Source of the DNA: an uncultured Flavobacteriales bacterium
Lineage (GTDB): Bacteria > Bacteroidota > Bacteroidia > Flavobacteriales_D > Crocinitomicaceae
Direction of reading: 5' to 3'
NCBI GenBank assembly: GCA_905478665.1
Contig: CAJQJL010000003.1
Location: 1 to 57,675, forward strand
DNA: 57,675 nt
The notes under the pieces were generated by a model. The model saw only the letters and a list, made by a program, of their open reading frames with translations. It did not search any database and was not told the DNA's origin. The position numbers and the translations under genes were made by a program. Positions 20,203 through 27,708 of this stretch are shown here, one piece after another; within the stretch, counting starts at the first letter, position 1; each line of letters begins with the position of its first letter.

Positions 20203-21192
20203 TTACTCAAGTCGATACTTCACATTCGAAATAAATGTGTGATCAGTAAGGGATTTTAAAAAGTTGATGAGGTCTTCTTTTTTTCGGGCATTGAGCTCAA
20301 AGGGAACGATCTCTTTGCCTTTGTTCTTATGCGCATTGCCACCCTTCATGTAATGTTCAATGATCTCTTCCAAGCTGGTTAAGCTCCCATCGTGCATGTA
20401 AGGCGCGGTTACTTCTATATTTCTTAGGGTCGGAACTTTGAAAATAGCTCTGTCGGCTTCATTCTCCGTTAAGCGCATTCTGCCTGAGTCGGCATAGACC
20501 TCGTACAAACCATTGTTTGTAAGTGCGTCATTTGTAAAGTCATTTCCTGAATGGCACTTGGCGCAATACAGCTCATCGAAGAACAACTTTCTTCCGCGCA
20601 ATTGAGAAGCACTAAGCGCAGACTTGTCGCCGTTGAGGTAGCGATCATAAGGGGAATCGTTACTAATCAGCGTCCGTTCAAATGTCGCAATGGCCTTGGT
20701 GTAAACGTATTGGTTGATTTCAGAATTGAATCCTTTTTTGGCCAACTCCACGTATACTGGGTTTTTCTGGAGTCGCTGAACGACCAGGGATATGTGAAAA
20801 TCAAATTCTTTGTGTTCTTGAATGGGAACGAGTGTTTGTGTTTCGAGTGTAGGATTCACACCATCCAAGAGAAAATAGGGTCGGTTTCCAACATTGGTCA
20901 GTGTCGGCGCATTGCGCGTGCCCTCTTGATCAAAAATTCCAACGCTCTTGCTGAGTCCGTCAGTAAATGCCAATTCTGGTTTGTGACAGGTGGAACATGA
21001 AACCGTGGAGTCTCTGGACAATACAGGATCATAAAACAACTGTTTTCCAAGTTCTATTTGCGCCTCCGTATTTCCAATGAGTGTATCCGATCCAGAAAAA
21101 TGGGAGTAGCCAACATGATTTACATGACCGCTACTCCCCAAAATAACTGATACGAAGAAAAACAGAAACAATAATGTTCCGCTTATTCTCAC
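20203..21192 (-). CDS. Di-heme cytochrome c peroxidase, MbnH/MauG-like
   Basis: 329 aa, GTG start, signal peptide to about residue 22. Two c-type heme sites CSTCH (66-70) and CAKCH (210-214), plus the PYMHDG motif (Met266) typical of the BCCP/MauG superfamily. It follows the MbnP-like gene by 3 bases. In methanotrophs the MbnP/MbnH pair is known: MbnH oxidises a tryptophan of MbnP to kynurenine, creating a copper site. The pairing here makes the same job likely, on a T9SS-tagged partner. An ordinary H2O2-detoxifying cytochrome c peroxidase is the alternative. Confidence 0.88.
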   Translation of the reverse strand: MRISGTLLFLFFFVSVILGSSGHVNHVGYSHFSGSDTLIGNTEAQIELGKQLFYDPVLSRDSTVSCSTCHKPELAFTDGLSKSVGIFDQEGTRNAPTLTNVGNRPYFLLDGVNPTLETQTLVPIQEHKEFDFHISLVVQRLQKNPVYVELAKKGFNSEINQYVYTKAIATFERTLISNDSPYDRYLNGDKSALSASQLRGRKLFFDELYCAKCHSGNDFTNDALTNNGLYEVYADSGRMRLTENEADRAIFKVPTLRNIEVTAPYMHDGSLTSLEEIIEHYMKGGNAHKNKGKEIVPFELNARKKEDLINFLKSLTDHTFISNVKYRLE

Positions 21193-21195
21193 AGT

Positions 21196-22185
21196 CTATC
21201 GTTTGACAATGAAGCGGAAACTTTCTTCCAAGTCTTCATTTGAAAACACGATGAAGTATGCACCTGTCTCCAATTCTTTATTGATAAAATAGTTCCCTTC
21301 AAATGGCTGATCTTTGCTTTCAATTAGCAATTGACCGCTTGTATTAAACACCTTCACATCTACCTCCGTTTTCGTCGCCAAATTGTAGAAAATTGTTGGT
21401 GCGTAGGGCAACTCATAGTTTGCGTAAATCTTACTTTCTTGTGCATTCAAATGATCCAAATCGAGCAATGGACTCATTGTGAATACCGTCTCATCGTTTG
21501 TATTGTCTGATACTGCAATGTTGTTTGGTCCACCACTGTGATCTACACCTGCCGCAACTAAATCAATGTTCATAATCCAATCAGCAATGTTTACATTCAA
21601 TGCCAACTCAATCGATGAACCCGTTACACTCATTCCTGAAAAACTGTTTACATCTCTCAGTAATGCATCTCCCAAACCTCTAAGTTGGAAAAGCTTGTTT
21701 GGAGTTCCGTCTCCTGTGTCGTCAATCATTCCGTCGATTACAAAAAAGAAGTAACCCGTTGGCCAACTCCAATCCATTGCTGGTGACTGTGCAGACAAGG
21801 GGTGTCCAGCAGGCCAGCTAGTCGTTCCAAGATGATTGGCAGCGTAATCAACTCCAAAATCAAAACTCAAAGCTTCAACTGTCGTTACATCTTCGTTACC
21901 CAAGTTGTATGCAGAAATGTTTGAACTTGCCAATACATACGCGTCTGGCATGGCTAAGGTCTGTCCACCATCGTGTGTCAATTCAAATCCACTTAAATAA
22001 TACTGAACTCTATCAAATGAAACGGCTGTTCCACCACCTGTTGTATAGGTTGTTCCATAGGAAAATGCCGCGCCATTGTACTCGTGCATCAAGTTAAGAT
22101 TGATGTCCTTCTGTGCCCAACTCATAAGGGATGTGCAGGTCCCTACCATTAGTAAAAGTGTTTTCATTTTATTTGTTTTAGTCAT
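21196..22185 (-). CDS. MbnP-like copper-associated protein with T9SS-type C-terminus
   Basis: 329 aa. The start at 22185 overlaps the upstream stop (TAATG). The ATG at 22167 gives a cleaner signal peptide (MKTLLLMVGTCTSLMSWAQ). The MbnP-family core spans about residues 28-250, with FDRVQYYLSGFELT near 57-70 and the diagnostic MDWSWPTGYFFF (M137, W139, W141). MbnP proteins bind copper through a kynurenine made from tryptophan by the MbnH peroxidase, here the next gene. The last ~75 residues resemble a T9SS sorting domain (KVFNTSGQLLIES, then LETGAYFIVFS), so the protein would reach the cell surface rather than stay in the periplasm. Confidence 0.85.
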   Translation of the reverse strand: MTKTNKMKTLLLMVGTCTSLMSWAQKDINLNLMHEYNGAAFSYGTTYTTGGGTAVSFDRVQYYLSGFELTHDGGQTLAMPDAYVLASSNISAYNLGNEDVTTVEALSFDFGVDYAANHLGTTSWPAGHPLSAQSPAMDWSWPTGYFFFVIDGMIDDTGDGTPNKLFQLRGLGDALLRDVNSFSGMSVTGSSIELALNVNIADWIMNIDLVAAGVDHSGGPNNIAVSDNTNDETVFTMSPLLDLDHLNAQESKIYANYELPYAPTIFYNLATKTEVDVKVFNTSGQLLIESKDQPFEGNYFINKELETGAYFIVFSNEDLEESFRFIVKR

Positions 22186-23405
22186 TAGTTAATAATTAGT
22201 TGTTGTCTCCATTGTCGATTTTCACAAATCACTTGGACTGTATACATTCCACTTTTCAGTGTATTAATATTGAGTGCGACTTTACTGCCTGAAAACTTTT
22301 GTTCCAGTACATTTTGTCCCAGCATATTCGTCATTCTTACAAAACCACTTTCCTGTTCGTCATTTTCAAATTCGATATTCAGAACACTTGATGCAGGGTT
22401 CGGATACATCAACACCCTACTTTCAATATTGATTTCAGAAACGCCAACATAGCCATTAATATCAACATTGACATATTGGGTGTTCTCAACTTCTTGGGTA
22501 TTTAAAGAAAAGTAATCGACCTGAATGGAGTCTAGGAATTGGCTGTTCGCTTCAAAGAGAACCCCATAGCGTTCGCCGGGTAATACCTCCAACGTATCGG
22601 CCGAAAACGATGCGGGCAATGGCCTTCCGTCAGATGCGATAACGACCGCATTCAAACCCGCAGGGAATAGATAGGTGTTTCCATAATTGCCAATGTTCGC
22701 CAACCGCAAGTAAATTGTTTCTCCTTCACCTCCAACTATTTCAGCGCTGCTGTTGTCCAATTGATGTTCAGACATTCCATTTACCAGAAAATGTTGGGGG
22801 TTGTAATCCAAAATCAAATGGGTCGTTGCCGTTGTATCATGCGGATGGTTAATAATCGAATCTACATGCCAGTTCGTGTCTATTTCAGAAGTCATCCACG
22901 CGTATTCTCGGTGGAACGAATACCCATTTTCCCACGTTAAGGTATCAGCACTTTGTGGACGCACAATCACCAATCCGTACATACCAGCCTGAACATGTAA
23001 AACAGAGGTCTCATGGCAATGATAGATATACGTTCCTGGATGCGGAACTTTAAAAAAGTAACTTCCTGTATCGTCGTGTTCAACAGCAAAAGATAACGCT
23101 GGAACACCATCATTTTCTTGGTTGACATCAAGTCCGTGTAGGTGAATCGTATGCGGAGGTCCTTGGGAAAGGTTCCACATATCTATTCGCACAGAATCTC
23201 CTTCTTTGAAATTGAGCGTTGGAGATGGGGCCTTGATTGCACCGCCAATTGTGGTGGTGTACCCCATCATGTAAATCTGATTTCCATCATACAGCTCGAA
23301 CTGCGGAAACGCGTCAATTTTAGAAACAAGTGAGACAGTCGTGTCGATTTGCGCAAAGCTATTCATTGTGAAGAATAGCAAACAAAAAATGATTCCTAGT
23401 CTCAT
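22185..23405 (-). CDS. Two-domain cupredoxin/multicopper oxidase with T9SS sorting domain
   Basis: 406 aa, signal peptide 1-18. Domain 1 (about 35-150) holds HTIHLHG (His85, His88, His90) and YHCHETSVLHVQAGM (His129-Cys130-His131, His137, Met142): a complete set for a type 1 copper and part of a trinuclear centre. Domain 2 (about 165-315) is a second cupredoxin fold without recognisable copper ligands. The C-terminal ~75 residues are a type A T9SS sorting domain (LMYPNPASSVLNIEF, LKSGMYTVQV). Half of the ligands of a full multicopper oxidase are missing and may come from the adjacent 286-aa protein. Copper oxidase or copper-binding role. Confidence 0.85.
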   Translation of the reverse strand: MRLGIIFCLLFFTMNSFAQIDTTVSLVSKIDAFPQFELYDGNQIYMMGYTTTIGGAIKAPSPTLNFKEGDSVRIDMWNLSQGPPHTIHLHGLDVNQENDGVPALSFAVEHDDTGSYFFKVPHPGTYIYHCHETSVLHVQAGMYGLVIVRPQSADTLTWENGYSFHREYAWMTSEIDTNWHVDSIINHPHDTTATTHLILDYNPQHFLVNGMSEHQLDNSSAEIVGGEGETIYLRLANIGNYGNTYLFPAGLNAVVIASDGRPLPASFSADTLEVLPGERYGVLFEANSQFLDSIQVDYFSLNTQEVENTQYVNVDINGYVGVSEINIESRVLMYPNPASSVLNIEFENDEQESGFVRMTNMLGQNVLEQKFSGSKVALNINTLKSGMYTVQVICENRQWRQQLIIN

Positions 23406-23407
23406 AG

Positions 23408-24268
23408 CTATGGCGTTATTAGCATTGTTAAAAACATTCCCAAAGGATAAAGGTTTCCTCCTGTCGTAGCCACAAGGTTGTGATCATGTACGGGGTATTC
23501 ACCTTCCTTATCGGGTACCAATCTAAACACGACACTTTCAAAAGGATAAATACCTTGTGAATCCTTGCTTCTTCCTACATGCTGTGGGCTGCGACTCGAA
23601 TGTATAATGTCTACATGATAGCCATGAAAATGAAGCGGATGAATACTCTGCCCTGTATTCACAGCATAAATAATCAATGTGTCACCAACCGAACCAGTAA
23701 CTCTCGCAGCTGGATCCGCATTAATGTTTGGGCTTCCCTTTCCATTAATGGTGAAGTAATTTGGGTAGTACGACGCCCAATTCACGCTCCCACCTGCTGC
23801 AATTGTGTAATTCCAACTGTCGGAATGCTCTTTGATGTTCCAATAGAAACTGGAGTGCGCATGGTCCTTAACGACAATCATTCCTGCCAAACCCATATAC
23901 GCGTTCTGTGGAAAATTCATTGGGTCAAGATAAATGTACGCCCCTGCCGTTGTAAATGTTTGCACAACGTTGATGGAATCATTCACGGGAATTGAGAATA
24001 CACCTGTTTCACCTTGAATCTGAAACTCATGGACAACCGAATCAAAATTCACTACCCAGAGGTCTAGAACATCCCCTACTTGAAGTTCAATCCGCGCGTT
24101 CATTTCTGTGTAAAGAGGACTACTACTAAACGTAGTATATGGCATCTTATCACCCGTAGATAAGTCCAGTGAATCACTGAAAATATAAACGCTTTCGTTC
24201 ACCGTTGCGCCGTAGCTCTGGCAGGCAACTGAAATGCTAAAGAAGATGAGACCTATTACAGATTTCAC
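23408..24268 (-). CDS. Cupredoxin-domain protein, degenerate multicopper oxidase
   Basis: 286 aa, signal peptide about 1-20, no sorting domain. Two cupredoxin domains: the first (about 30-130) has no copper His motifs, the second (about 140-286) has HPLHFHG and the degenerate EGEYPVHDHN with Asp where the type 1 copper cysteine should be (HDH in place of HCH). It can therefore hold trinuclear-type His ligands but not a blue copper. 2 bases from the downstream gene encoding the complementary two-domain oxidase. The two may assemble into one enzyme. Starts within the stop of the gene before (ATGA overlap). Confidence 0.82.
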   Translation of the reverse strand: MKSVIGLIFFSISVACQSYGATVNESVYIFSDSLDLSTGDKMPYTTFSSSPLYTEMNARIELQVGDVLDLWVVNFDSVVHEFQIQGETGVFSIPVNDSINVVQTFTTAGAYIYLDPMNFPQNAYMGLAGMIVVKDHAHSSFYWNIKEHSDSWNYTIAAGGSVNWASYYPNYFTINGKGSPNINADPAARVTGSVGDTLIIYAVNTGQSIHPLHFHGYHVDIIHSSRSPQHVGRSKDSQGIYPFESVVFRLVPDKEGEYPVHDHNLVATTGGNLYPLGMFLTMLITP

Positions 24269-24951
24269 AGCTTTTGGAATTTATTGGAGACACTGTTTCC
24301 ACCTTCATCAGCAAATCGAATGATGTACATTCCGCTTTCTAGATTTGAAACATCCAATGAAGAATTCTGTAATTCTGCAACCGAAACTTCTTTTACCAAT
24401 GTCCCTGCAAAGTTGTAGATCCCAACCGTTGTTATGTTCTCAACTGTATTGAATTTCAAGTTTTCCTGAACTGGATTTGGGTAAATGACTGGCTGTTCTA
24501 GCATTGTCAATTCATTCGCAGAAAGCGTAGTATTCAACAACCAAGTCGCTGTATCACCGTCATTCGGAAAGTTTAGGTCATAGACGTAAATCTGTAGTTT
24601 CGCCACTTCAGTTCCTGTCAACGGGTTTACGGTAAGTCGCACATAACCGAATTCCGAACCGCTAATTGGTGACATTTCTGCTGTTGTTCCTACTGGAGGA
24701 ATGATTCCCAAACATTGTCCATGAATACATACCATACCATCCCAAGCAGCTGGTAGATCATTGTATGTAACCTCTATTCCCAAGGTAACGGTATCCGTTC
24801 CAACCGCAGATTGTTCCATCTTTAACAGAACTGTTGTGTTGAGGTCTAAGTTCGTTTCAATTGTGTTGGTTGTAACCCAATTAAACGTCTGCGCTTCCGA
24901 AGTAAAAACATTCGCTAAGCATACTAGCGCAATTGTGTATAGTGTTCTCAT
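24265..24951 (-). CDS. T9SS-sorted secreted protein, function unknown
   Basis: 228 aa. Signal peptide MRTLYTIALVCLANVFTSEAQ, an Ig-like all-beta mature part of about 125 residues with one CIHGQC pair (a CxxxxC possibly binding metal or forming a disulfide), then a type A T9SS sorting domain (VIYPNPVQENLKF, LESGMYIIRFADEGG). Overlaps the cupredoxin gene by 4 bases, so it belongs to the copper operon. Function not recognised. A copper-binding or scaffold role is an inference from context. Confidence 0.75.
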   Translation of the reverse strand: MRTLYTIALVCLANVFTSEAQTFNWVTTNTIETNLDLNTTVLLKMEQSAVGTDTVTLGIEVTYNDLPAAWDGMVCIHGQCLGIIPPVGTTAEMSPISGSEFGYVRLTVNPLTGTEVAKLQIYVYDLNFPNDGDTATWLLNTTLSANELTMLEQPVIYPNPVQENLKFNTVENITTVGIYNFAGTLVKEVSVAELQNSSLDVSNLESGMYIIRFADEGGNSVSNKFQKL

Positions 24952-24972: not shown

Positions 24973-25320
24973 TTAAGGTCTTTCGTATTGGCAACACCCG
25001 TGCAAATTATTGTAAACTTCATCTTTAGCGCGATGCGAATCACTGTCATAGCCAACATCAGCGATGAGTTGTTTGATTTCATCTAAGGTGATTGTCGAAG
25101 GGTTGAATTGTACAGACATTTGATGCGATTCAATTTCCCAATCTGCGGAATTAACTCCTGCGACATCTTCAAGTGATGACTCAATGGTTTTCTTGCACAT
25201 TCCGCAGTTTCCATAAACCGTGAATGTTTCCTTTTGTTTTTCTCCTTGAGACCCCTCTTGTGAATTAGCACAAGATGCCAGAAGAATAATGGAGGTTAAT
25301 AATGTAAGTGTGAATTTCAT
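24973..25320 (-). CDS. Lipoprotein with HMA (copper-binding) domain
   Basis: 115 aa from the ATG at 25320 (the frame is open further upstream, but this start gives a clean lipoprotein signal). Lipobox LLASC (Cys17). Heavy-metal-associated domain at about 31-95 with metal site GNCGMC (Cys39, Cys42) and the usual beta-alpha-beta pattern; a C-terminal HGCCQYE adds a possible third cysteine pair. Membrane-anchored HMA proteins bind Cu(I) and hand it on or sequester it. Upstream of the oxidase and MbnP genes, in line with a copper-handling operon. Confidence 0.88.
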   Translation of the reverse strand: MKFTLTLLTSIILLASCANSQEGSQGEKQKETFTVYGNCGMCKKTIESSLEDVAGVNSADWEIESHQMSVQFNPSTITLDEIKQLIADVGYDSDSHRAKDEVYNNLHGCCQYERP

Positions 25321-25398
25321 TCTAAAATTATTTAAAAGTAACAACCTAGATCGAGCGCAACGCTGCGCCAACCGTATAAGCGATTCAAAAAATAATTA

Positions 25399-25875
25399 TC
25401 AGATTATTAGCACCTGGTAGAGTGCCTGGAAGTTCCTTTCAATGTCAGGAGGTGGTGGAAAGTATTCACCTAGACGTCTGTTTTGTACAGAAGAAACAAA
25501 CTCGCTCGTTAGCATCTCCGAAGGGAATATCACTAACGAAAAATATTCATTCTCTACCTGACTTGTTTGGTCTTCAATGTTTTGAATAGTCTTGCTTCCT
25601 ACGGAAGTGTTAGAGCAACACGGTGTTTTAGAAAAGTGTGTGAAGTCCTTGTTTATAGTCGCCAACCCCAGCTTTGCTTTACAGCATTCAAGCATCTCAG
25701 GTTCTTGACTAACTTCCATATTCTCACATGGCTGTGCTTGTCCAAACAAAGAAAACGATTGGACTTCACCTTGACAAATATGAACGTCAACTGCAAAGCA
25801 AGAAGTAGTTCCAAAAAGCATAAAAGCTAGGAACAACAACAATCCTCGTCTACAAAATTCTATTACCGTCTTCAT
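25399..25875 (-). CDS. HYC_CC_PP family protein
   Basis: 158 aa from the ATG at 25875 (the longer frame to 25986 lacks a plausible signal peptide). Signal peptide, then the three family marks: HIC near residue 32, cysteine pairs LECCKAK and PCCSN, and FPPPPD near the C-terminus. This small periplasmic family is typical of Bacteroidota metal-homeostasis loci, usually next to HMA proteins or metal-related TonB receptors. Biochemical role unknown, presumably copper binding. Probably first gene of the leftward copper operon, divergent from the multicopper oxidase at 26119. Confidence 0.8.
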   Translation of the reverse strand: MKTVIEFCRRGLLLFLAFMLFGTTSCFAVDVHICQGEVQSFSLFGQAQPCENMEVSQEPEMLECCKAKLGLATINKDFTHFSKTPCCSNTSVGSKTIQNIEDQTSQVENEYFSLVIFPSEMLTSEFVSSVQNRRLGEYFPPPPDIERNFQALYQVLII

Positions 25876-26051
25876 AATATCGTACGCAAAATACTTTGTT
25901 TCAGTGGCTTTACCAAACGGTTCTGCCAGATAACTTGAAGTCCTATTGGATGAAATTTCACAGAAAACACATCCTAAAGCGAACACGTCCCAAGTATAAA
26001 TCTCTGGCTTTCAGTGCATTTTAACCTTGAAGTGAGTTTTTTAAACCAAGT

Positions 26052-26118: not shown

Positions 26119-27708
26119 ATGAAAACTTACTTATTTACCCTTTTATTAATTAGTGGTGCTTCCTTTGGTCAAAACCAATTAGCAATTCCACCGACCATTG
26201 AAACGTCAAACATTAACTTGACACTTCAAGAAGGAGTTACCCAATTCTACCCAGGAATTAACACCAATACGATGGGCGCAAATGGCGCGCTACTCGGACC
26301 TACCTTAATCATGACCCAAGGTGATAACGTTAACATCACTGTTGACAATCAGCTAAGTGATACGACAACGATTCACTGGCATGGAATGCACGTTGCACCA
26401 GAAGACGACGGCGGGCCTCACAGTATCATTCTTCCAGGAGCTACATGGAATCCACAGTTTACTGTTCTGGATAAGGCTGGCTTGAATTGGTATCATCCAC
26501 ATTTGCACATGCGAACGGATGAACACGTTTCGAAAGGAATCGCTGGTTTAATTATCGTAAGAGATTCAGAAGAAGCAGCATTGAACTTGCCAAGTACCTA
26601 TGGCGTAGATGAGTTTCCAATTGTCTTGCAGACAAAAGGATTTGATGCCGCAGGAGAAATTGTTGTTCATACAGAATTGGACACTTCAGTAATGGTTAAC
26701 GGTACAGTTGATGCATATACTGACCTTCCTGCACAAATAGTTCGATTAAGAGTGCTCAATGGCGCTAGCCAGCGTGTAATGGAGCTTGGTTTTTCAGACA
26801 ACCGTACCTTCAGTTTAATTGGAACAGATGGTGGATTATTCACCGCTCCACTTAGCGCCACTCGATATCGAATTGCTCCAGGTCAACGCGTTGATATCTT
26901 GGTTGATTTGACAACAAGTCTCGGACAGAATTTTCAGCTAATGAGTTATGGTTCGGAATTGCCCAATGCCATTTATGGTGCGGCGCAACCAGGAATGGGA
27001 GCAGGAGCAACAAGTTCACTGGTAGGCTATACAAGTAATCCTCTAAATGGAAATGATTATCAATTGTTGGACATTACTGTTGGCGCACAAACCGCAAGTC
27101 CTGTTTTGACCATTCCTGCTACATTGGCAAATTTTACACCTCTCCTCGAAGCTTCAGCGAATATCACAAGAGACTTAACGTTTACTTCTGCTGGCGCAAT
27201 GGGAGATCTAATGGGTCCTTTCCTTATTAACGGAAGCTCATTTGACATGAGCACGATTAATTACACCATTCCATTAAACAATGTCGAAATTTGGTCATTG
27301 ACGAATCAAACGCCTATTTCACACCCTTTTCACATTCACGATGTTCAGTTCTTTATTCTGGATATCAACGGAAATCCTCCTCCTCCAGAATTACAAGGTT
27401 TCAATGATGTCGTTCTTGTTCCTGCAGGCATGGGCAACGTTCGGTTCATTGCTCAGTTCAATGATCATGCAAACGACAGCATTCCATACATGTACCATTG
27501 CCACATGCTTACACACGAGGACATGGGAATGATGGGACAGTTTTTAGTTGTTGATCCTCAAGCGGGGATTGAAGAACTTCAGGGTGAGAACAAAGAACTG
27601 ATCAAAATCGTGGATTACATGGGTAGAGAGGTTCTTCCAGTGAACAACACGCCACTGATTTACATGTATTCCGACGGAACAACTGAACGAAAGTTCCATT
27701 TCGAATAA
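26119..27708 (+). CDS. Multicopper oxidase (CueO/CotA-like)
   Basis: 529 aa, signal peptide about 1-18. All four copper-ligand motifs are present: HWHGMH (residues 86-91), WYHPHLH (about 124-130), HPFHIHD and YHCHMLTHEDMGMMG near the C-terminal end, so type 1, 2 and 3 centres are complete. The final ~45 residues (KIVDYMGREV, then LIYMYSDGTTERKFHFE) match the short sorting-domain ending seen in other T9SS cargo. Likely oxidises Cu(I) or phenolic/metal substrates in the envelope or at the surface. Divergent from the copper operon with a shared intergenic region. Confidence 0.93.
   Translation: MKTYLFTLLLISGASFGQNQLAIPPTIETSNINLTLQEGVTQFYPGINTNTMGANGALLGPTLIMTQGDNVNITVDNQLSDTTTIHWHGMHVAPEDDGGPHSIILPGATWNPQFTVLDKAGLNWYHPHLHMRTDEHVSKGIAGLIIVRDSEEAALNLPSTYGVDEFPIVLQTKGFDAAGEIVVHTELDTSVMVNGTVDAYTDLPAQIVRLRVLNGASQRVMELGFSDNRTFSLIGTDGGLFTAPLSATRYRIAPGQRVDILVDLTTSLGQNFQLMSYGSELPNAIYGAAQPGMGAGATSSLVGYTSNPLNGNDYQLLDITVGAQTASPVLTIPATLANFTPLLEASANITRDLTFTSAGAMGDLMGPFLINGSSFDMSTINYTIPLNNVEIWSLTNQTPISHPFHIHDVQFFILDINGNPPPPELQGFNDVVLVPAGMGNVRFIAQFNDHANDSIPYMYHCHMLTHEDMGMMGQFLVVDPQAGIEELQGENKELIKIVDYMGREVLPVNNTPLIYMYSDGTTERKFHFE

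Follow-up and report, generated by a model that had tools for sequence, protein, structure and literature searches.

T9SS-tailed MbnP-like proteins of Bacteroidota and their MbnH-like partners without an inter-heme tryptophan

Introduction

Does a gene pair in an uncultured member of the Crocinitomicaceae encode a copper site that is made by a heme enzyme and displayed on the cell surface, as a first-pass annotation of its DNA proposed? To our knowledge, copper sites formed by converting tryptophan to kynurenine have been characterised only in a few methanotroph proteins. In the MbnP of Methylosinus trichosporium OB3b, a 2021 study by Manesis reportedly found Cu(I) to be held by His, Met and solvent, and the kynurenine, made from the first Trp of a WxW motif, is said to be needed for the Cu(I), yet to lie about 2.9 Å away from it. 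The DNA analysed here (the window) is a stretch of 57,675 nucleotides (contig CAJQJL010000003.1, assembly GCA_905478665.1), and related loci carry numbers with the prefix L.

The available portion of PMC3621798 describes the MbnP-MbnH pair as conserved far beyond methanobactin producers, and MbnP as being without marked sequence similarity to MopE and CorA. According to the accessible text of PMC3912023, these two are surface kynurenine-copper proteins encoded beside diheme peroxidase genes (MopE-SACCP and CorA-CorB), which is an arrangement like that in the window, and SACCP is reported there to be on the cell surface, and no T9SS is mentioned in that text. MopE and CorA hold copper via two His and kynurenine. 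Given the published non-methanobactin pairs and MopE/CorA, neither a pair outside methanobactin nor a surface kynurenine copper site is a new idea, and what is of interest here is how the pair in the window differs from those that have been characterised.

Results

The gene pair and its cluster

The minus strand between positions 20203 and 22185 carries two open reading frames, an MbnP-like gene and then an MbnH-like gene, which form the downstream end of a seven-gene same-strand cluster (Table 1). In order, this cluster encodes an HYC_CC_PP protein, an HMA/CopZ-like protein, a T9SS-tailed protein, MCO2, MCO1, MbnP and MbnH, with successive intergenic gaps of 27, 21, -4, 2, -1 and 3 nt. Among the matches listed, two loci of the same genus (L046 and L047) repeat this cluster order, with two MbnP genes.

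Table 1. Positions in the window of the pair, its candidate functional residues and the neighbouring genes
Feature	Position	Strand	Basis
MbnH-like diheme enzyme, 329 aa, GTG start	20203..21192	-	profiles, model
Tyr281; axial Met in bCCP 1iqc and Tyr in MbnH 6e1c align here	20350..20352	-	
CxxCH 2 (C210-H214)	20551..20565	-	sequence
Leu109, inter-heme tryptophan position	20866..20868	-	alignment
CxxCH 1 (C66-H70)	20983..20997	-	sequence
MbnP-like protein, 329 aa: signal peptide, MbnP domain, T9SS tail	21196..22185	-	profiles, model
T9SS type A sorting tail, residues 265-328	21202..21393	-	TIGR04183 32.1 bits, cut-off 23
His216; 85/85 T9SS-type MbnPs, no untailed MbnP sampled	21538..21540	-	alignment
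MbnP domain PF20243	21556..22110	-	86.1-87.4 bits, E 3.7e-24 to 2.2e-24; cut-off 27
Arg169 (AGA), where all untailed MbnPs sampled have His	21679..21681	-	alignment
MDWSWPTGY motif, residues 137-145	21751..21777	-	sequence
His128; 84/85 T9SS-type MbnPs, no untailed MbnP sampled	21802..21804	-	alignment
Multicopper-oxidase-like MCO1 with T9SS tail; 1-nt overlap with MbnP	22185..23405	-	profiles
Multicopper-oxidase-like MCO2	23408..24268	-	profile
T9SS-tailed protein with W...C...C core; homologues near MbnP-MbnH in related loci	24265..24951	-	profiles
HMA / CopZ-like protein	24973..25371	-	profiles
HYC_CC_PP family protein; upstream end of cluster	25399..25986	-	NCBIfam
Divergent multicopper oxidase; top NCBIfam model CueO, 357.5 bits, below cut-off 525	26119..27708	+	

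The MbnP-like protein

The pairing of an MbnP-like protein with a two-CxxCH MbnH-like protein, as first annotated, was borne out both by profiles (PF20243 and PF03150) and by folds (7l6g and 6e1c). An AlphaFold2 model of the window MbnP (mean pLDDT 91.5) matched six chains of MbnP 7l6g at Foldseek ranks 1-6 (probability 1.00, TM 0.41-0.45) and, at rank 10, the C-terminal T9SS domain of RgpB (7pq4). PDB searches by sequence, with phmmer and with a five-sequence MbnP profile, retrieved no MbnP, and the route to 7l6g was by Deinococcus and Methylocystis MbnPs from a plasmid collection. On the strict MbnP model TIGR04052 the protein scores 28.9 bits, below the cut-off of 140. The annotated MDWSWPTGY motif is present, and so is the sorting-like C-terminus, on which TIGR04183 lies above its cut-off and 7pq4 matches, while PF18962 (19.5 bits) falls below its cut-off of 27. 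With the tail and a signal peptide judged by eye at about residues 1-24, the window MbnP is probably located at the cell surface.

Within the motif, the Met two before WxW is kept (M137-D-W139-S-W141), and we take W139, the first Trp of WxW, to be the counterpart of the Trp converted to kynurenine in OB3b MbnP. The system of OB3b (7l6g, 6e1c) resembles that of the window in its gene pair, both folds, MxWxW and two CxxCH motifs; in contrast to OB3b MbnP, the window MbnP has a T9SS tail, Arg for the kept His, Asp after the Met and two extra fixed His. It also has one Cys, inside the signal peptide, whereas the name of 7l6g refers to a "four-Cys motif".

Relatives and pairing

A scan of GTDB contigs with the pattern M[HD]W[GS]W[PTA]xGY gave 374 stretches, 356 of them relatives, of which the best 80, being the loci most similar to the window, were kept. 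A whole MbnP gene was obtained from 77 of these (L088, L089 and L144, without a complete MbnP, were dropped), and 73 of the 77 had at least 1,100 nt downstream. As the scan pattern fixes Met137, Asp/His138, W139, W141, G144 and Y145 in L067-L146, only His128, His169, His216 and the residues of the enzyme are informative there. WxW was likewise invariant in 26 T9SS-type proteins collected without the scan pattern; these had been selected with an M.W.W..GY filter, which every MbnP locus fetched passed.

Pairing was measured from the end of MbnP to the start of MbnH, on either side, using the last MbnP copy at each locus. A same-strand MbnH lies within 2.6 kb of the end of MbnP at 70 of the 73 T9SS-type loci, the others being L110 and L114, which have no MbnH nearby, and L133, where MbnH is split into two frames; all 17 of the fetched MDW-clade loci have an MbnH. 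Because MbnP-MbnH recurs in relatives, the pair in the window is not a product of chance. The TIGR04183 tail was found on 73 of 81 aligned T9SS-type MbnPs (this alignment excludes both L099 proteins and the second L126 copy) and on none of 53 MbnPs that represent the two remaining types and come from relatives of the window. Together the pairing and the tail counts show that a T9SS-tailed MbnP with an MbnH is widespread in Bacteroidota and is not a freak of the window.

Two-CxxCH genes adjoining MbnP at L065, L066 and L149-L151 are annotated as "methanobactin export MATE transporter MbnM", which looks like a misnaming of MbnH.

Candidate metal-site residues

Residues of untailed MbnPs were counted at 53 of 60 fetched loci, with L176-L182 excluded; of these, L176 and L179 have no motif, L180 is T9SS-like, and L177, L181 and L182 have Trp-less enzymes despite short MbnPs. 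The sole His common to every untailed MbnP is that of an H(L/V/I)G strand, present in 61 of 61 distinct sequences (23/23 of C107 type, 30/30 of C96 type and 10/10 classical, two classical members being also in the C107/C96 sets), and its conservation makes it the likeliest of the candidate copper ligands. Arg169 of the window MbnP aligns to this His in a profile alignment (99.7% probability, E 7.8e-26). His118, which is present in the window MbnP, was rejected as an obligatory ligand of the family because none of the 23 C107-type MbnPs has it and all 23 have the 169-type His.

Among T9SS-type MbnPs, His169 is kept in 63 of 64 with MHW (one MQW) and in 9 of the 21 in the MDW clade, which includes the window (support 100/94). 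The difference between MHW/MQW and MDW sequences gives a Fisher p of 2.6e-8 when relatedness is ignored, and the well-supported branches require at least five changes of His169. Among MDW-clade loci with a doubled MbnP, L069 and L072 have one His and one Arg copy and L071 has two His copies. The counts for His128 and His216 (Table 1) come from 85 rows, which exclude the second, untailed L099 protein and add two copies from the host's own genome.

The absence of His169 in 12 of 21 MDW-clade MbnPs, and of both His118 and His169 in 6 of 21, together with Arg169 at a His common to 61 of 61 distinct untailed MbnPs and a TIGR04052 score far below cut-off, tells against a canonical site, in which W139 would become kynurenine and Cu(I) would be held by Met137, a His and solvent as in OB3b, displayed at the surface, with His118, His128 or His216 replacing His169. 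Such a site would account for the retention of W139, W141 and Met137, and His118, the fold match to 7l6g and the copper-gene neighbours are in its favour; on balance we think it unlikely. Taking the canonical site for granted in this protein was rejected on account of Arg169, and a canonical Cu(I) site in the window copy is not supported by these alignments.

The MbnH-like enzyme

The window MbnH matches PF03150 (E 4.2e-52), and its top NCBIfam model is TIGR04039, at 250.2 bits and so below the cut-off of 362.85, followed by MauG at 233 bits. The top fold match of its model (mean pLDDT 88.7) is MbnH 6e1c (TM 0.81), which is also the top PDB match of a 38-member MbnH profile (250 bits); in a single-sequence phmmer search a Nitrosomonas europaea peroxidase (1iqc) is best at 160 bits, and 6e1c ranks 11th at 133.5 bits. 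By eye the protein has a hydrophobic N-terminus, either signal or anchor, and no C-terminal T9SS tail was seen on it. Among 69 Trp-less MbnHs, 66 have at most 23 residues past the last L(T/S/N)D landmark and three have no landmark, and 44 are lipoprotein-like by a crude pattern, that of the window not being among them. The catalytic residues are nearly constant in 108 MbnHs selected for having two CxxCH motifs (Gln119 in 107, Glu129 in 108 and Tyr281 in 107), and OB3b MbnH shares with that of the window the Tyr at the axial position and the distal Gln and Glu positions.

Residue numbers of Pseudomonas CCP give the rule that the inter-heme Trp lies 39 residues after the first heme His, which was verified on 1iqc. 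At this position the window enzyme has Leu109, and in this it differs from OB3b MbnH (6e1c) and the bCCPs compared, which have Trp, as do 10 of 10 MbnHs from classical pairs and from untailed pairs of the host's own genome. A tree of 155 MbnHs, made by a quick method with no bootstrap, contains one clade of 73, of which 72 have no inter-heme Trp (41 have Arg there) and one has it (L082), and in the rest of the tree the Trp is present in 82 of 82. The split has an SH-aLRT of 97 and takes two label changes, compared to 51.6 in shuffles. Around the 73 T9SS-type loci, MbnHs are Trp-less only at 42, of both kinds at 23, Trp-bearing only at five and absent at three; the five include L082, whose enzyme groups in the Trp-less clade, and L126, which was counted at its second MbnP copy and has both kinds after the first. 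The usual MbnHs of T9SS-type MbnPs are thus a clade without the inter-heme Trp, which is new here. Trp-less MbnHs also accompany three short MbnPs that do not belong to the T9SS set, so a tail does not always go with loss of the Trp.

At the 23 loci with both kinds (L094, L096, L100 and 20 others), a single T9SS-type MbnP is accompanied by two MbnH genes.

How an enzyme without this Trp might act can be judged from two relatives. MauG is, like the window MbnH, a diheme enzyme with a Tyr-ligated heme, and it oxidises Trp; it differs in its substrate, methylamine dehydrogenase, and in having an inter-heme Trp93, which, according to the available part of PMC6405878, MauG requires to stabilise bis-Fe(IV) and to make TTQ. 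BthA of Burkholderia is, according to the same partial source, also a diheme enzyme with Tyr ligation; it has no inter-heme Trp, Ser standing where the window MbnH has Leu, and it still forms bis-Fe(IV) and acts as a catalytic peroxidase, not in the manner of MauG. No MbnP partner of BthA is mentioned there. The window enzyme could similarly be a peroxidase that clears H2O2 arising from copper chemistry or from the multicopper oxidases, with MbnP not its substrate. BthA converts H2O2 to water (PMC6405878, as available), and the shared lack of the inter-heme Trp, the kept distal Gln and Glu and a true peroxidase as nearest single-sequence match would all suit this, but the tight gene pairing with a WxW-bearing MbnP and the fact that the top fold and profile match is MbnH make it, in our judgement, improbable. 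The axial-position Tyr sets the window MbnH apart from bCCPs; because BthA also has an axial Tyr, this residue does not separate the MbnH reading from the BthA one.

Neighbouring genes and the host genome

MCO1-MCO2 genes are present at 16 of the 77 loci with a whole T9SS-type MbnP gene; in the MDW clade they adjoin MbnP-MbnH both in the window and at 5 of 17 fetched loci, and no MCO1-MCO2 pair was found in the other 12 of the 17 fetched stretches, some of which end early at contig ends. This patchy presence, like the retention of Trp and enzyme where the usual His is lost, would suit a Trp-derived centre with a redox or structural use and not one for copper, the copper genes being incidental to MbnP. 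We regard that as very unlikely, as the window pair is packed in a copper cluster with few-base gaps or overlaps, and other MbnP-MbnH genes also adjoin copper genes, both at related loci and, in the part of PMC9426467 available, where MbnPH-like genes occur in copper operons.

MCO1 and MCO2 (22185-24268) resemble, by eye and from motifs only, two halves of a single multicopper oxidase, with HLHG and YHCHE in MCO1, LHFHGYH and HDHNL in MCO2, and no Cys of HCH in MCO2. A possible third partner of the pair is the T9SS-tailed protein with a W...C...C core (24265-24951); untailed homologues of about 184 aa lie near MbnP-MbnH at nine MDW loci (L074, L075, L078, L080, L081 and L083-L086), and one small form has no Pfam match. 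At L074 (8151-10412) a fasciclin-domain protein with a T9SS tail follows an MDW-type pair.

The host genome (89% complete) has five MbnP and four MbnH genes, which make up four pairs and leave one T9SS-type MbnP unpaired, and it encodes the T9SS component SprA (2402.5 bits). MbnB (PF05114) had no match in it at E 0.001, which sets the window system apart from that of OB3b. A methanobactin context was rejected on this ground, and with no MbnB match in the 89% complete genome the first-pass annotation is supported in placing the pair outside any methanobactin context; as a novelty the placement does not stand, such pairs having been described in PMC3621798, so far as that source is available.

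The unpaired MbnP (C75; L011, 5744-6730) has an MQW motif and no MbnH match on its contig, and its neighbours are an HMA protein and, by eye, CopA ATPase-like and CusB-like genes. A YHYH protein (PF14240) with a T9SS tail (L010, 6985-8385) directly follows the C107 MbnP-MbnH pair.

Discussion

The surface copper site was not upheld in the form in which it was first put forward, as the window MbnP has Arg169 at the usual His (61/61 untailed) and its enzyme has Leu109 at the inter-heme Trp. Both differ from the characterised proteins, and both also count against the explanation that we prefer. This is that a T9SS-exported branch of MbnP has its own MbnH, that its Trp is oxidised before export and that its metal site has been remodelled, a proposal that we see as evenly balanced between right and wrong. 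Also weighing against it are the published findings on MauG and BthA, the closer single-sequence match to 1iqc, the PF18962 score, the T9SS-type MbnPs lacking an intact MbnH nearby and the 12 MDW-clade stretches in which no MCO1-MCO2 pair was found.

Both proteins would enter the periplasm via their N-terminal signals, and there MbnP would fold. Going by OB3b MbnP and the kept catalytic residues, MbnH with H2O2 at its five-coordinate heme would oxidise the first Trp of MDWSW, acting without the inter-heme Trp, and the T9SS would then export the modified, folded MbnP, which would be retained on the cell surface next to the T9SS-tailed MCO, as the tails of both suggest. In the remodelled site Met137 and the Trp would stay, His would have given way to Arg169, residue 138 would be Asp and His128 and His216 would be fixed; if copper is bound, the residues of the changed site, including His128 and His216, would be likely new ligands. 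Oxidation of the Trp before export is plausible from the sequences. Because the MDW clade keeps the enzyme and WxW and not the usual His, the most economical account of its pairs would be that they still oxidise Trp in the periplasm but have an altered metal site.

A more specific form of this, which we hold only tentatively and find less probable, is that exported MbnPs keep the Trp and the heme enzyme and drop the Cu(I) His, that the Trp is oxidised without a relay and that the kynurenine serves some other metal or redox site at the surface, with tandem His and Arg copies dividing the work. In that case the multicopper oxidase exported alongside might receive electrons or copper from the kynurenine site.

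Literature searches met neither the T9SS-tailed branch with its Trp-less enzyme clade (for T9SS-tailed MbnP, no paper was found by title or abstract, with subscription journals thinly covered) nor, in any paper found, the loss of His in the MDW clade. The T9SS-type MbnP-MbnH pairing, the Trp-less enzyme clade and this His loss are apparently new. They belong to a large MbnP branch in Bacteroidota that is predicted to be exported, with 356 relatives found in GTDB contigs by one pattern and the tail present on 73 of 81 sequences examined. At L069 and L072, His and Arg copies occur naturally side by side and offer a ready-made test of kynurenine against histidine in the making of a copper site, and the Trp-less MbnHs bear on whether a Trp relay is required for the oxidation of tryptophan.
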